Shown here piece after piece: positions 1,497 to 8,292 of a stretch of 35,152 nt of DNA. The DNA comes from Bacilli bacterium (GTDB taxonomy: Bacteria > Bacillota_I > Bacilli_A > RFN20 > CAG-826): positions 1-35,152 of the forward strand of contig JAFSUM010000036.1 of assembly GCA_017445245.1 (NCBI GenBank), in the 5' to 3' direction. How positions within the stretch are numbered: position 1 is the stretch's first letter; every line of letters begins with the position of its first letter. The notes under the pieces are model-generated. The model made no database searches. It was not told the origin of the DNA and saw only the letters and a program-made list of their open reading frames with translations. The translations under genes were made by a program, and so were the position numbers.

Positions 1497-1607
1497 GTTT
1501 TGTGGGAAACACCGTTTTAAAGTATGTTGGTTTTGTGGGAAACACCTCTGTAGACCTTGTTAGTTTTGTGGGAAACGGATATATTTTAGGTGTTAGTTTT
1601 GTGGGAG
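1497..1607 (+). repeat. Four direct repeats at exact 33-bp period, last one overlapping the ribosome site
   Basis: The core GTTTTGTGGGAAAC starts at 1497, 1530, 1563 and 1596, so each step is exactly 33 bases (about three helical turns). Copies 1 and 2 extend to GTTTTGTGGGAAACACC. The fourth diverges after GTTTTGTGGGA, and its GGGAG (1603-1607) is the ribosome site of the following ATPase gene. GTTT and AAAC form short inverted arms within each unit. Only the core is shared and the 16-19 bases between cores are unrelated. The placement suggests self-control by a DNA- or RNA-binding product, possibly the ATPase itself. Confidence 0.85.
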
Positions 1608-1616
1608 AATTCCTTT

Positions 1617-3014
1617 ATGAGAGAACTTGATGAATATGAACTCGCGTTGCAATATGGCGAATACATCGAACGCGACGTCTATCAAAAGCTACTGAAATGG
1701 AAAGCGGAAGACGCTCGGCAACACAAGTGCCTCTTTTTAAGAGGGGCTAGACGTGTAGGTAAATCCTGTTTGGCCCTGGAATTCGCCCACAAGGAGTATA
1801 AATCCTTTATTAAAGTGTCCTTCGACAAGGCCTCAGATGACGTTCGGAGACTATTCGTGGATTCTCTGGAAGACTTGGATTATTTCTACGATCAGTTGTC
1901 CGTCGTTTACGAAACAAAACTTTACGAAGGGGAATCACTTCTCATTTTGGATGAAATCCAGCTTTTTAAGCCGGCGAGGCAGGCGATAAAGACATTACTT
2001 TTGGATGGACGTTACGACATATTGGAAACAGGTTCATTGGCTTCGATTGTCAAAAAAAGCAAAGACGACGAGAAATACTTGATCCCCAGTGAAGAGATCA
2101 AGATTGATGTCCTTCCCCTGACCTTCAAAGAATACCTTAAGGCCAATAAGAAGGATGACATGACCGAGTTCATCGAAAAGGTGATCGGGTCCAAAAAAAC
2201 CTTTCAAGCAGCCTACCGGAGTATTTATAAGGAATTCCGCGATTATCTTTTCGTCGGCGGCATGCCCAAATGTGTCGCCACCTACTTGAAAACTCGCGAT
2301 CTGACAAAGGTCGAGGAAGAAAAACGCGGTATCGTCGAACTCTATTATGACGATTTCAGCCTACAGGAAAACGTCAATTCTCTTTACCTGACATCCATCT
2401 TTAATCTCATTCCCAGCGAACTTTCCAATCACGATAAGCGTTTTAAGCTTTCACACATCCGTTCCAACGCCCGAGTGAGGGAATATGGTTCGGCTTTCAA
2501 ATGGTTAAAAGACGCCTATATCGTCAACATCTGTCACAATGCGACCGACCCTTCCGTCGTTCCCGTGCTAAACGCGGATGGAGATGACATCAAGGCTTAT
2601 TTCCTAGACACCGGTCTTCTATACACCCTGTCATTCATGAAAACGCAGGAAGACGAGCTTTTCTATAAATCCCTCGTCCACGATAAGCTGCACATCAACG
2701 AAGGAATGTTCATTGAAAACTACGTCGCCCAAGTTCTGAAGACGAAAGGGTACAAAGACCTCTTTTTCTACGAGAAACGCGATGCCAAAACATTCCGAAC
2801 GATCATGGAAATCAATTTCCTAACGATCGCGGGTAGAAGGGTCGCGCCGATCGAAGTCAAATCATCGGACGAAATCTCCCTAACGTCGATAAAGAAATTC
2901 AAGCAAACATTCGATGGGAAAGTAACCAACGGAATCGTCATCTATGATGGCGACTATAAAATCGAGGATAACATCACCTACCTCCCCGTATTTGCCTTGG
3001 ATTGGTATCTCTAA
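1617..3014 (+). CDS. ATPase with C-terminal DUF4143 (PD-(D/E)XK-like) domain
   Basis: A 465-residue AAA-type ATPase of the COG1373 kind. Walker A is GARRVGKS (residues 43-50), Walker B is LLILDEIQ, and the usual C-terminal DUF4143 region with a nuclease-like fold ends in MEINF...APIEVKS. In that motif the expected acidic residue (E-x-D-F) is Asn, so catalysis by the nuclease-like domain is doubtful. I chose ATG 1617, 9 bases after GGGAG, over an upstream in-frame GTG at 1590, because that extension is encoded by the repeat array. The gene stands alone with its own 33-bp repeat array and no partner gene. The function of this abundant family is not established; ATP binding is very likely and the nucleic-acid role is inferred. 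Confidence 0.85.
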   Translation: MRELDEYELALQYGEYIERDVYQKLLKWKAEDARQHKCLFLRGARRVGKSCLALEFAHKEYKSFIKVSFDKASDDVRRLFVDSLEDLDYFYDQLSVVYETKLYEGESLLILDEIQLFKPARQAIKTLLLDGRYDILETGSLASIVKKSKDDEKYLIPSEEIKIDVLPLTFKEYLKANKKDDMTEFIEKVIGSKKTFQAAYRSIYKEFRDYLFVGGMPKCVATYLKTRDLTKVEEEKRGIVELYYDDFSLQENVNSLYLTSIFNLIPSELSNHDKRFKLSHIRSNARVREYGSAFKWLKDAYIVNICHNATDPSVVPVLNADGDDIKAYFLDTGLLYTLSFMKTQEDELFYKSLVHDKLHINEGMFIENYVAQVLKTKGYKDLFFYEKRDAKTFRTIMEINFLTIAGRRVAPIEVKSSDEISLTSIKKFKQTFDGKVTNGIVIYDGDYKIEDNITYLPVFALDWYL

Positions 3015-3527: not shown

Positions 3528-3869
3528 TTAAGCGAAGAGGACAGCCAAAAGCATCATCAGTTCCATATGGCTTAGGGCACCTTCGATCTCATATAGATAA
3601 GGGCCGCAGTACTCCTTGATGCGGTTACCCTCTACTTCAACGAGGTAATTCCCGCAGTACCGTTTCAATCTCCTACCATCGAATTCGACAAGATAGGGAC
3701 CACAGTAAGTCTTGATACGATCGCCTTGGATTTCATAAACGTTTGGGCCGCAGTACCGCTTTACATAAGTGCCCGAAAGCTCATAAGTCCTAGGACCGCA
3801 ATAGTCCTTCATCTGGCCCCCGTTAATCTCATAAAGATAAGGACCGCAATAACGTTTGATTCGTGCCAT
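3528..3869 (-). CDS. Six-repeat beta protein with one Cys per repeat (beta-flower-like)
   Basis: A 113-residue protein built from six tandem 16-residue units of the form IKxYCGPYLYEIxGxR. Cysteines fall exactly at residues 8, 24, 40, 56, 72 and 88, five of the six units keep CGP (the fifth has CGN), and a hydrophobic tail (98-113) closes the chain. The pattern resembles the small repeat proteins called beta-flower in domain databases, whose short strand-turn-strand units form a closed ring; this is my recollection, not a search result. Six in-register cysteines could face one surface and bind metal or be modified. There is no signal peptide, so it is probably cytosolic. There is no clear ribosome site; GACAAT ends 6 bases before the ATG. 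Function unknown. Confidence 0.75.
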   Translation of the reverse strand: MARIKRYCGPYLYEINGGQMKDYCGPRTYELSGTYVKRYCGPNVYEIQGDRIKTYCGPYLVEFDGRRLKRYCGNYLVEVEGNRIKEYCGPYLYEIEGALSHMELMMLLAVLFA

Positions 3870-3881: not shown

Positions 3882-4030
3882 AGTCCGGTAACGAAAAAGG
3901 CAACAGGAACCGCCAGGTAATAGGGAGGCACTGCCAAAGAAAGGCTGGTCCTTTTTCTTAAAGAAAGGCTATCCGTAGATATCTTTTGCCCAATGAACCC
4001 CGTTTCGCTTTTTTTCTTGTTCGCTTAGGC

Positions 4031-4036
4031 TATGCT
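4031..4036 (+). promoter_or_regulatory. -10 element 6 bases before the serpin gene start
   Basis: TATGCT (4031-4036), AGAAGT, then ATG 4043. No Shine-Dalgarno sequence. Predicts a leaderless mRNA and supports ATG 4043 rather than the in-frame ATG at 3986. Confidence 0.45.
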
Positions 4037-4042
4037 AGAAGT

Positions 4043-5341
4043 ATGAAACCTTCCCGCTTGCTCGTCCTTACTGCCTTGGCCCTTTGTGGGTGTAGTGTCA
4101 CCTCGTCGCTTTCTTCATCCTCCGAAGCCTCAAGCGAGACATCTTCGGAAGCTAAGACCAGCAGCGAAGATTCTTCGGTCGAACCCTCCTCCGAACCCGA
4201 GTCCTCTTCAAGCGTCTTACCTCAAACCCCGCGCATTTATGCCTCCCCATTAAGCGAAACCGTAACAAGACTCGACACCTCGTTCTCTAACGCAGGCGCA
4301 TTGGCTCTTGAACAGATCGCCTTTGGATTAGAAGGGGATGGTAATGCCGTCATCTCCCCCGCTTCTTATCTTCTTGCCATCGCAGGCGTCAACGACGTAT
4401 CCGCGAACATGGGCGTCTCCTTCCTAGGCCTGAACAAAGGCGATGCCAAAAAACTATTAGAAGCGTGGAACTACCATTACGAACGTCCTAGCGACAATTA
4501 CGACAGCGCCGAGCTAAGCGAAATGAAATCCCTCTTGCTCCATCAGCAAATCGGGGATGCCTACCGCTTCGACGAGAACAAGCGTCAACTCCTCGCGGAA
4601 GAGTACGAAAGCACCATGGTATCTAGTCTAGATTCCTACCACGAAGACGCGGTCGATTTCTTCCATAACGACGCAGGCTTTACGATCGAACCACCCGACC
4701 CGCACGCTACGACGGATGGCATCATCACCTATGGAGCCTTCAAGATGAAAGACTGCGTGGCCGATGACTTTGGTTCCAGCCAGCGTCCCTTTAACGGCAA
4801 GGATGTCGAATGCTATTCCTTCGGCAGCACCCTTTGGCCCGAATACTGGAATTACGCGAAAGCAGATCATTACTGCGTCTTTGAATTCAACGTAGCCTTT
4901 ACGAGCCTTATGGTCATCTTGCCCGATGTCGGTACCGAACTTGAAGACATCTCGCTTTCGGAAGCCTACCGCTTCTATAACGAAAACAAAAAGGTAACCA
5001 CCGTAGTCGGTTACGTACCTTATTTCCACGTCGCTTCCCAAAACGTTGACCTTACCAGTGCACTTTCTAGCCACCTAAGCGGCAAGGAAATCTTCTATGA
5101 CAATCTACTCGAAGATACCTGCGTCAATAACCTAAGCCTAAGCTCCATCCTCCAAACCAGCGACTTCGAATTCAATAAAGACGGCGTATCGGGCGAATCG
5201 ATCACGGCCGTCTATGTCTGTGGTTCCCCTGAACCCACCGAGCACGAAGTCACCTATCTTAACGTAGACCGCCCCTTCTATTGCCTGTCTTTAAAAGACG
5301 GGTTCCCCCTCTTCGCGAATAAAATCACCACGCTCAATTAA
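4043..5341 (+). CDS. Serpin-family lipoprotein (protease inhibitor-like)
   Basis: A 432-residue lipoprotein: signal peptide with lipobox LCGC (Cys17), a Ser/Glu-rich spacer to about residue 60, then a serpin domain. Family marks are NAVISPASYLLAIAGV near the start of the domain and the C-terminal signature NVDRPFYCLSLKDGFPLFANK. Serpins trap serine or cysteine proteases by cleavage of a reactive loop; a surface-bound bacterial serpin would act on host or competitor proteases. The hinge region (NKDGVSGESITAV) is poorer in small residues than in known inhibitory serpins, so inhibition is not certain. The start at 4043 is chosen by the signal peptide and the -10 at 4031. It overlaps the end of the convergent CstA gene by 8 bases. 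Confidence 0.8.
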   Translation: MKPSRLLVLTALALCGCSVTSSLSSSSEASSETSSEAKTSSEDSSVEPSSEPESSSSVLPQTPRIYASPLSETVTRLDTSFSNAGALALEQIAFGLEGDGNAVISPASYLLAIAGVNDVSANMGVSFLGLNKGDAKKLLEAWNYHYERPSDNYDSAELSEMKSLLLHQQIGDAYRFDENKRQLLAEEYESTMVSSLDSYHEDAVDFFHNDAGFTIEPPDPHATTDGIITYGAFKMKDCVADDFGSSQRPFNGKDVECYSFGSTLWPEYWNYAKADHYCVFEFNVAFTSLMVILPDVGTELEDISLSEAYRFYNENKKVTTVVGYVPYFHVASQNVDLTSALSSHLSGKEIFYDNLLEDTCVNNLSLSSILQTSDFEFNKDGVSGESITAVYVCGSPEPTEHEVTYLNVDRPFYCLSLKDGFPLFANKITTLN

Positions 5342-6903: not shown

Positions 6904-6958
6904 AATGGAGGTAGAAGCAATAAGAACGGCATAGCGGATATTGTCTTACATCATTTTT

Positions 6959-6985
6959 GTGGCTAAAATAAAGTTGAACTTTAGA
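6959..6985 (+). repeat. 27-bp repeat, upstream copy, just before the second ATPase/DUF4143 gene
   Basis: GTGGCTAAAATAAAGT, two variable bases (TG here), then AACTTTAGA. The same sequence with CC in the middle lies downstream of the gene at 8409-8435. The copy is directly 5' of the ribosome site (AAAGGG, 6994-6999). Its inner part AAAGT...ACTTT is inverted. Confidence 0.8.
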
Positions 6986-7005
6986 AAAGTCAGAAAGGGA
7001 ATTCT

Positions 7006-8292
7006 ATGGCCGTCATCAACAAGTATTACAAACGCGCGATCGAAGACGTCGTCGTACGCTCGTTTAAGAACAATAAGGTCGTCTCGATTTTAGGTGCAAG
7101 GCAGGTAGGCAAATCTACTTTGGTAGAGAACCTTTTCCCGAGAATGGAAAGGGCATCTTTAAAGACGGCCTTTATGATCAACCAAGCGAAGAGTAATCCC
7201 GACTCCTTCATCCGTGGCCTTTCGATTCCCGCTTTCATCGATGAAGCTCAAAGAGCGCCCGAAATCTTCGGCTCGATTCAGGAAGTCGTCGATAATAACG
7301 CATTCTATTCCCAGTTCATCTTGTCGGGTTCCAATAAGCAGAAAATCGACAAAAAGATCCGTGAATCCCTAGCCGGTCGCACCTCGATTATCGAAATCGA
7401 TGGCTTGTCCATGCGCGAGATATTCGGTGTTGAATTCCATGAACACTTCATTCCTACAAAGGAGTATTTGGATAAACGCAAAAAGTATTTAAAGGAATAC
7501 AAGGATATCTGGTTCTACATCCACCGCGGCTCCTACCCCGAGTTATATGACAACCCCGATAAGGACTGGGAAGAATTCTATTCGTCCTATGTCCAAACCT
7601 ATATCGAAAAAGATGTCTTAACCGATACCAGAATCAAGGACATCACCGCTTTTATCCGCTTCCTGACCTCCTGTGCGGCCAGAACGGGCGACATCTTGAA
7701 TTATGCAAACATCGCGAACGACGTCGGCGTTTCCCCCGTCACGATCAAAGAGTGGATATCGATCCTCGTTGAGACCAATATCATCTATCTCCTGCAGCCC
7801 TATTACAATTCCCACCTCAATCGAGCTATTAAATCGCCCAAGCTCTACTTTAGAGACACGGGTTTGGCCGCTTATCTTGCAGGCTGGCTTACCAAAGACC
7901 AATTGGAACGCGGTGCCAGAAACGGTTTCTTCTTCGAAACGTTCGTTGTTAATGAACTTATCAAATCCTTTGTCAACGAGGGCAAGGATTATTCGAAACG
8001 GGTCTTCTACTATAATGGCAAGGACAAGACGCGCCGCAAAAAGGACAAAGACGGCAACGTAACTGAAATAAGTATCGAATCCGAAATCGACTTCATCATC
8101 GAAGAAGATGGTGTCTTGTACCCCATCGAAATCAAAAAGAAGGATATACCTACCGCAGATGACGCATCCGCCTTTGATGTGTTGGATAAAGACATCAACA
8201 AAAAGAGGGGCATGGGCGTAATCTTCTCCTCCAATCCCAATAAGGCTTACCTAAGAGATAATCTGGTCTGCCTGCCTATTGAATATATTTAA
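7006..8292 (+). CDS. ATPase with C-terminal DUF4143 nuclease-like domain
   Basis: A 428-residue AAA-type ATPase of the COG1373/DUF4143 family. Walker A is GARQVGKS (residues 30-37), Walker B is AFIDEAQ, the sensor region is FILSGSNKQ, followed by the family segment SLAGRTSIIEI. The C-terminal domain keeps an apparently intact PD-(D/E)XK-like motif, ESEIDF...LYPIEIK, unlike the ATPase at 1617 where the Asp is Asn. The start has AAAGGG 6 bases upstream. It is a solitary gene flanked by two copies of a 27-bp repeat. Family function is unresolved; I infer ATP-dependent action on nucleic acid or on a partner protein, not a proven enzyme. Confidence 0.85.
   Translation: MAVINKYYKRAIEDVVVRSFKNNKVVSILGARQVGKSTLVENLFPRMERASLKTAFMINQAKSNPDSFIRGLSIPAFIDEAQRAPEIFGSIQEVVDNNAFYSQFILSGSNKQKIDKKIRESLAGRTSIIEIDGLSMREIFGVEFHEHFIPTKEYLDKRKKYLKEYKDIWFYIHRGSYPELYDNPDKDWEEFYSSYVQTYIEKDVLTDTRIKDITAFIRFLTSCAARTGDILNYANIANDVGVSPVTIKEWISILVETNIIYLLQPYYNSHLNRAIKSPKLYFRDTGLAAYLAGWLTKDQLERGARNGFFFETFVVNELIKSFVNEGKDYSKRVFYYNGKDKTRRKKDKDGNVTEISIESEIDFIIEEDGVLYPIEIKKKDIPTADDASAFDVLDKDINKKRGMGVIFSSNPNKAYLRDNLVCLPIEYI

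Follow-up and report, generated by a model that had tools for sequence, protein, structure and literature searches.

A conserved 33-bp tandem array upstream of AAA_14-DUF4143 ATPase genes, a putative private operator in the candidate defence family PDC-S01

What reads a row of evenly spaced repeats that runs into the ribosome site of an ATPase gene, and what might such a row do for the gene it precedes? This question is raised by a locus in a 35,152-nucleotide stretch of a Bacilli draft genome (contig JAFSUM010000036.1; hereafter the window, meaning the whole stretch of DNA analysed), in which a gene for a protein of 465 residues (1617-3014, forward strand) follows four similar sequences. We address it through the sequence of the array, its distribution among homologous genes, its relation to the encoded protein and its placement over the promoter.

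The array in the window and across the gene family

The original prediction was of four copies of one sequence, 33 bases apart. The spacing is indeed exactly 33 bp in all three intervals; however, the copies are not all identical. The sequence GTTTTGTGGGAAAC is found exactly at positions 1497, 1530 and 1563, and the fourth copy, at 1596, reads GTTTTGTGGGAGAA, with two mismatches. Chance would produce 0.24 matches to GTTTTGTGGGAAAC per window when up to two mismatches are allowed, and four copies were obtained in none of 100 shuffles. Alignment in register with homologues extends the conserved site beyond that first noticed, to the 19-bp sequence TGTYRGTTTTGTGGGAAAC, which corresponds to TGT(C/T)(A/G) followed by GTTTTGTGGGAAAC. 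The window array is made up of four such sites on the forward strand, spanning 1492-1609 on the 5' side of the ATPase gene: TGTCAGTTTTGTGGGAAAC (1492-1510), TGTTGGTTTTGTGGGAAAC (1525-1543), TGTTAGTTTTGTGGGAAAC (1558-1576, overlapping the -35 box and spacer of a predicted promoter) and TGTTAGTTTTGTGGGAGAA (1591-1609, starting at about the predicted transcription start).

Bases outside the 19-bp sites are unrelated between units, in agreement with the original prediction. The GGGAG ribosome site of the ATPase gene also lies where it had been placed, within the fourth copy (1603-1607), 9 nt 5' of the ATG at 1617. An alternative GTG start at 1590, inside the array, figures in the mechanical list of open reading frames; it was rejected, the alignment of homologues supporting the ATG at 1617. 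We looked for further occurrences of the array sequence in the draft genome of the same organism (1.35 Mb, 74% complete) and found none away from the gene.

Homologous loci devoid of upstream repeats were also looked for. Relatives, viral contigs and the paralogues present in 24 genomes all supplied homologues, as did a search through bacterial and archaeal genomes; a gene was scored as having an array when at least 14 of 16 bases matched themselves at a shift of 32 to 34. In a first set, consisting of relatives, 64 of the 72 genes have an array by this definition, compared to 2 of 1,440 shuffles. A second set covers a broad range of taxa (Actinomycetota, Bacteroidota, Spirochaetota, Fusobacteriota, Pseudomonadota, Kiritimatiellae, Lentisphaeria and the archaeon Methanomethylophilus); here the array is present upstream of 67 of 80 genes, at a shift of 33 in 50 cases and of 34 in 17. 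When all sets are pooled and redundancy is removed, an array at 32-34 bp is found for 194 of 245 homologues (79%), against 5 of 4,900 shuffles, with about one fifth of the homologues falling short of this strict definition.

Other genes from the same loci served as a control, and only 10 of 358 possess a 32-34-bp array. Two of these ten are close members of the ATPase family itself, two or three resemble ATPases from elsewhere in the clan, and a further one, an artefact, reflects a run of Ns. Shuffles and same-locus controls together rule out chance or base composition as the origin of the array. Among pooled homologues, self-matching is enriched only at shifts of 32-34 and at their doubles. 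Arrays range from two to eight sites, three being found in 120 of 212 genes, and spacings between sites are of 33 bp (339 cases), 34 bp (87) or 32 bp (45). Selection on the period, which had been proposed from the window alone, is thus borne out by its presence in most of the family. The associated proposal of a protein lined up on one face of the helix at three-turn steps holds only approximately, since 33-34 bp correspond to 3.1-3.2 turns at 10.5 bp per turn. Family-wide, the period classes 32, 33 and 34 are discrete and seem to follow the clade.

While the period is shared, the full site sequence is specific to each gene, and only a weak core, approximately (C/T)TTG(A/T)4(C/G)GTGNA, is common to the family. 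Adjacent copies within one array are 81% identical over the 18-bp site and 46% over the spacer; in orthologues whose proteins are 70-85% identical, the corresponding values are 68% for sites and 38% for spacers. These identities argue for selection on the site and on the spacing, not on the sequence of the spacer. In Bifidobacterium panos, paralogues of one genome carry different repeats, and one such repeat, when searched, was present only beside its own gene. This species (loci L257-L272, L148, L171 and L227) harbours about 18 paralogous ATPases in a genome of 1.9 Mb, most of them with a distinct array. No partner gene recurs, as the original prediction had it: the most frequent neighbour family occurs in at most 6 of 80 loci, and is itself another ATPase of this kind. 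With sites peculiar to each gene and no recurrent partner, the simplest candidate for reading them is the encoded protein itself.

The encoded ATPase and co-variation of its recognition helix with the sites

The product of the ATPase gene matches Pfam AAA_14 (72.7 bits, cut-off 27) and DUF4143 (76 bits, cut-off 28.1), and contains both a Walker A (GARRVGKS) and a Walker B (LILDEI) motif. Residues 17-463 match the PADLOC profile PDLC04786 of system PDC-S01 (E-value 6.3e-95), and the PDC-S01 profile is matched by all 30 homologues of alignment A1. Hence the protein family is not of an undescribed kind, as had been suggested for the unit, being already described as the widespread candidate defence system PDC-S01 (PMC12988326). 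NCBIfam and PHROGs held no usable family for the ATPase, and searching solved structures by sequence was uninformative.

AlphaFold models and PDB matches predict an AAA+ domain (residues 36-175, approximately), a helical part, a winged helix (about 255-345) whose recognition helix spans residues 287-299, and a PD-(D/E)XK nuclease-like domain (about 345-465). The model of the ATPase (pLDDT 89), with its AAA+ domain followed by the winged helix, aligns to PDB entries 2qen (Z 17.0 over 272 residues) and 2fna (Z 14.9), which are of the PABY2304/SSO1545 type; this fold also resembles STAND proteins and Orc1/Cdc6 (Z about 10 for Orc1/Cdc6). Modelled alone, the C-terminal domain resembles the PD-(D/E)XK nucleases McrC (6hz4_N, Z 9.3), Can2 (7bdv, Z 9.1) and Card1, and also DdmD. 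Foldseek gave no match below 0.001 for this domain (best 1.8e-3), so that the PD-(D/E)XK assignment is structural and motif-based. The nuclease motif is present in the family but not in the window copy, which retains E413 and K415 and has lost the acidic residue 400. At this catalytic position, 234 of 247 homologues have Asp and 11 have Glu, and the Asn of the window copy (codon AAT, 2814-2816, forward strand) is unique. With its array and ATPase motifs intact, the window copy may be nuclease-dead yet still self-regulating; the substitution may also be an assembly error.

Does the private sequence of the sites change together with the protein? Co-change was scored on a tree of 212 genes, by counting the branches along which a position of the motif and a column of the protein are altered together, with permutation inside branch-length classes. 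Plain mutual information, with no tree correction, had given scattered hits due to clade structure and was set aside. In the tree-based analysis, residue 288 comes out on top of all 423 columns (p 0.014 by the maximum statistic taken across 14 motif positions), and for core motif positions 9-12 none of 1,000 permutations is as strong. The top pairs associate residue 288 with motif positions 10, 12 and 11, and residue 286 with position 10. The best nine-residue window of the protein is found around residue 284 (about 283-290), at the N-terminus of the recognition helix (p 0.003); the codons of R286-R288, in which co-variation with the repeat core is best, are located at 2472-2482 on the forward strand.

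All 107 genes encoding R288 have T11, and all 107 have G12, versus 79 and 89, respectively, of the 105 genes lacking this arginine. Likewise, G10 is found in 134 of 162 genes with R/K286 but only in 7 of 49 without. Such associations would fit contacts between arginine and guanine. In a held-out group of 57 genes, 46 of the 56 testable ones have an array; G10 accompanies R/K286 in 16 of 24 genes versus 6 of 22 others (p 0.008) and G12 accompanies R288 in 19 of 19 versus 17 of 27 (p 0.002), both p-values being uncorrected for relatedness. In the stricter m>=14 subset, residue 288 still comes third over the full motif, but its maximum statistic loses significance (max p 0.60); among TG-core genes alone it falls to fourth or off the list, as expected where the core does not vary. 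We therefore regard the co-variation as moderate and subset-dependent, with a motif register that is uncertain in divergent genes, and as good but not conclusive evidence for recognition of the sites by this helix. It points to the encoded ATPase as the likely reader, in line with the self-controlling protein that had been envisaged.

Placement over the promoter and possible modes of action

A sigma-70 promoter is predicted at 1557-1585 on the forward strand from a consensus match only (9/12), with TTGTTA at 1557-1562, a 17-bp spacer and TATATT at 1580-1585. It overlies site 3 and the spacer ahead of site 4. From this promoter, the transcript would begin at about 1592, roughly where site 4 starts; site 4 covers the ribosome site too. 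Among 160 genes in which we identified a -10-like hexamer, 440 of 510 copies lie entirely 5' of the predicted start, and 37 fall entirely within the transcript, promoters being consensus guesses throughout. Two phases are observed for the -10 box: it either directly follows the GTG, the site then doubling as an extended -10, or lies 22-24 bp past the site start, which places the site over the -35. Such overlap with the promoter in two registers is more suggestive of repression than of contact-dependent activation.

We consider it likely that the array is a private, self-encoded operator, to which the ATPase binds cooperatively and represses itself. The ATPase very probably recognizes the array of its own gene, to judge from sequence comparison, because the sites are private to each copy and change with the DNA-reading helix; it may also switch this gene off. 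The N-terminus of the recognition helix (R286, R288) would read the GTG core of each site of about 18 bp, and several protomers or dimers would sit side by side on the array, one per 33-34 bp. Once filled, the array would block transcription of the ATPase gene, because its sites overlie the -35 and -10 boxes and, in the window, the ribosome site too. Dilution, titration or a change of state, for instance of nucleotide state, would release the repression. Because site sequences differ from copy to copy, as many as about 18 paralogues of one genome could each act on their own gene alone. The array, its period and its presence across the family, as well as its uniqueness in the genome, its overlap with the promoter, the lack of a partner and the co-variation with the helix, are computed directly; we infer physical binding, cooperativity and repression rather than activation, along with any role of ATP or in anti-phage defence. 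In Thermus, TT_P0211 (AAA_14, DUF4143) is expressed 6.6-fold higher in the joint presence of a plasmid and Argonaute (PMC4406477), a hint, by analogy, that such genes may respond to foreign DNA.

Several other readings of the array may be considered. Sites acting at the RNA level in the 5' UTR, an option left open by the original prediction, would account for the ribosome site being covered by copy 4 of the window; the great majority of copies nevertheless precede the predicted start of the transcript, in promoter DNA, and the distance from motif to start codon is not constant. This is the least probable explanation. A host regulator, either global or tied to a defence island, might bind the repeats through the weak core TTG..A/T..GTG found across the family. 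However, repeats that differ between the paralogues of one genome speak against a single shared host regulator. The repeat also stays with the gene in different phyla and changes in concert with the helix of the ATPase itself; we find this explanation highly improbable. A little less improbable, but still very unlikely, are repeats that serve as recognition sites for the replication, transposition or homing of the ATPase gene as a selfish or mobile unit. Iterons in the replication sense, the term chosen in the original prediction, are not supported. The family has a patchy, multi-copy distribution, with members in 60 plasmid records, 13 phage-like contig records and 32 viral-contig loci, and orthologues at 71-78% identity occur without the neighbours seen in the window; COG1373 is reported among genes shared between genera through transfer (PMC10782964). 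Among the plasmids checked, arrays are seen in Segatella copri, Phocaeicola vulgatus (two sites 66 bp apart) and Criblamydia, and one is present on a phage-like contig. In Segatella copri DSM 18205, the plasmid gene LK433_RS14125 (WP_006848557.1), whose product retains the nuclease motif, has three sites at a 33-bp spacing. Gene and array therefore travel together, and the array need not be a mobility site: transfer alone requires no array. Furthermore, the repeats flank the gene on one side only, where they overlap the promoter; neither inverted ends nor target duplications were seen around the window copy, no element boundaries were defined, and no exact empty site was found. The neighbouring formate/nitrite transporter does occur in two genomes (G011 and G013) with no adjoining ATPase, but the context of the transporter differs in these genomes as well. 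We also rejected the array as a viral target, the exact two-site pattern having no match in the viral contigs.

A less remote, though rather unlikely, alternative is that the ATPase assembles on the array in a safe state, the array acting as a tag of self-identity whose loss, occlusion or competition, for example during phage takeover, frees or activates the nuclease. Consistent with such a platform, the period of 32-34 bp is kept across bacteria and an archaeon in spite of diverging sequence, and arrays usually have three sites or more and are more regular than a simple repressor needs. The protein combines a STAND/Apaf-like and Orc-like ATPase fold with a McrC/Can2/Card1-like nuclease fold, its nuclease residues are near-invariant in the family, and the family is a listed defence candidate. 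In every case, however, the array covers the promoter of its own gene, a position that ordinary autoregulation accounts for, and no array was found away from the gene. It is a tentative thought, and a doubtful one, that in bacteria and archaea alike the largest candidate defence family of ATPase-nucleases would license its effector on a private DNA ladder of 33-34 bp, disturbance of the ladder during infection being the trigger.

Relation to known systems and neighbouring genes

The organisation described here has parallels in known regulators. MalT binds tandem boxes, and archaeal Orc1/Cdc6 proteins bind repeated sites near their own gene. Orc1/Cdc6 and their origin recognition boxes share the AAA+ and winged-helix combination, whereas here many paralogues occur per genome, each with its own array. 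Toxin-antitoxin operons and BrxR/CapW provide self-repressing control of defence genes, likewise through an operator that overlaps the promoter of a gene whose product may be harmful. Their repressor is a separate antitoxin or regulator; in the present family, ATPase, putative DNA reader and nuclease are joined in a single polypeptide, and every gene copy has a putative operator of its own. The archaeal ATPases SSO1545/PABY2304 and STAND regulators such as MalT and IniR have the same AAA+ and winged-helix fold. The ATPase domain of IniR resembles SSO1545, and IniR binds a promoter (PMC5760070). IniR is an activator of a different operon and binds DNA through a distinct C-terminal domain, while the proposed target of the window ATPase is its own promoter and a nuclease domain is attached; ATPases of the window type also differ from IniR in carrying one array per gene copy.

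PDC-S01, a PADLOC candidate system (AAA_14-DUF4143, COG1373), is the same single gene, and its ATPase and PD-(D/E)XK make-up has been published (PMC12988326). The published accounts consulted cover the protein only and describe no cis array (PMC12988326, PMC13356809); the window copy differs in lacking the catalytic Asp. Anti-phage roles of PDCs are candidates, with experimental validation pending for most of them (PMC12988326). Searching the open-licence literature on DUF4143, COG1373, PDC-S01 and 33-bp repeats, we found no description of the array, and the array and its co-variation with the protein appear to be undescribed so far. Self-operators are a known kind; what would be new is a one-chain ATPase-nuclease with a private, even operator ladder kept from bacteria to archaea. 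PDC-S01 is reported to rank as the fourth most common candidate defence system across prokaryotes and as the top single defence locus in rumen genomes (PMC12988326, PMC13356809). A gene-specific array that co-varies with the protein is a first mechanistic handle, one that points to the DNA read by the protein and to the residues used, and that offers a ready assay. The family further provides many natural, mutually distinct candidate repressor-operator pairs, and raises a structural question open to direct study, namely how an AAA+ ATPase would be arranged on a ladder with 33-34-bp steps.

The window contains a second PDC-S01 gene (7006-8292, forward strand), which belongs to another subfamily (PDLC04790). 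Upstream of this gene (6941-7006) and of its relatives (L085-L113), an interrupted dyad of about 34 bp, for example TGGCTAAAATAAAGTTGAACTTTAGAAAAGTCA, lies over the promoter. An array in every DUF4143 gene was accordingly rejected, as this sister-subfamily gene and its relatives have the dyad and no 33-bp array. The two PDC-S01 subfamilies may thus differ in operator symmetry, tandem in one and dyad in the other.

Other genes around the locus were also recorded. Adjoining it on the reverse strand (139-471) is a truncated remnant, 110 residues long, of a STAND/AAA_16-like ATPase, for which nSTAND_NTPase5 scores below cut-off; a relative 33% identical to this remnant is found beside the orthologue at locus L019. 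Downstream of the ATPase gene, a short reverse-strand protein (3528-3869) consists of about six tandem repeats of the (K/D)xYCGPYLYEIxG type, and a forward-strand gene (3986-5341) encodes a secreted, serpin-like inhibitor of proteases (Pfam Serpin, 3e-8) whose start resembles that of a lipoprotein; such a gene is unusual for a small bacterial genome. In other loci (L137:6670-7947, L146 and L151), AAA ATPases of a related type adjoin the main gene and have upstream self-matches at 32-33 bp too; the array feature may extend to further ATPase families.
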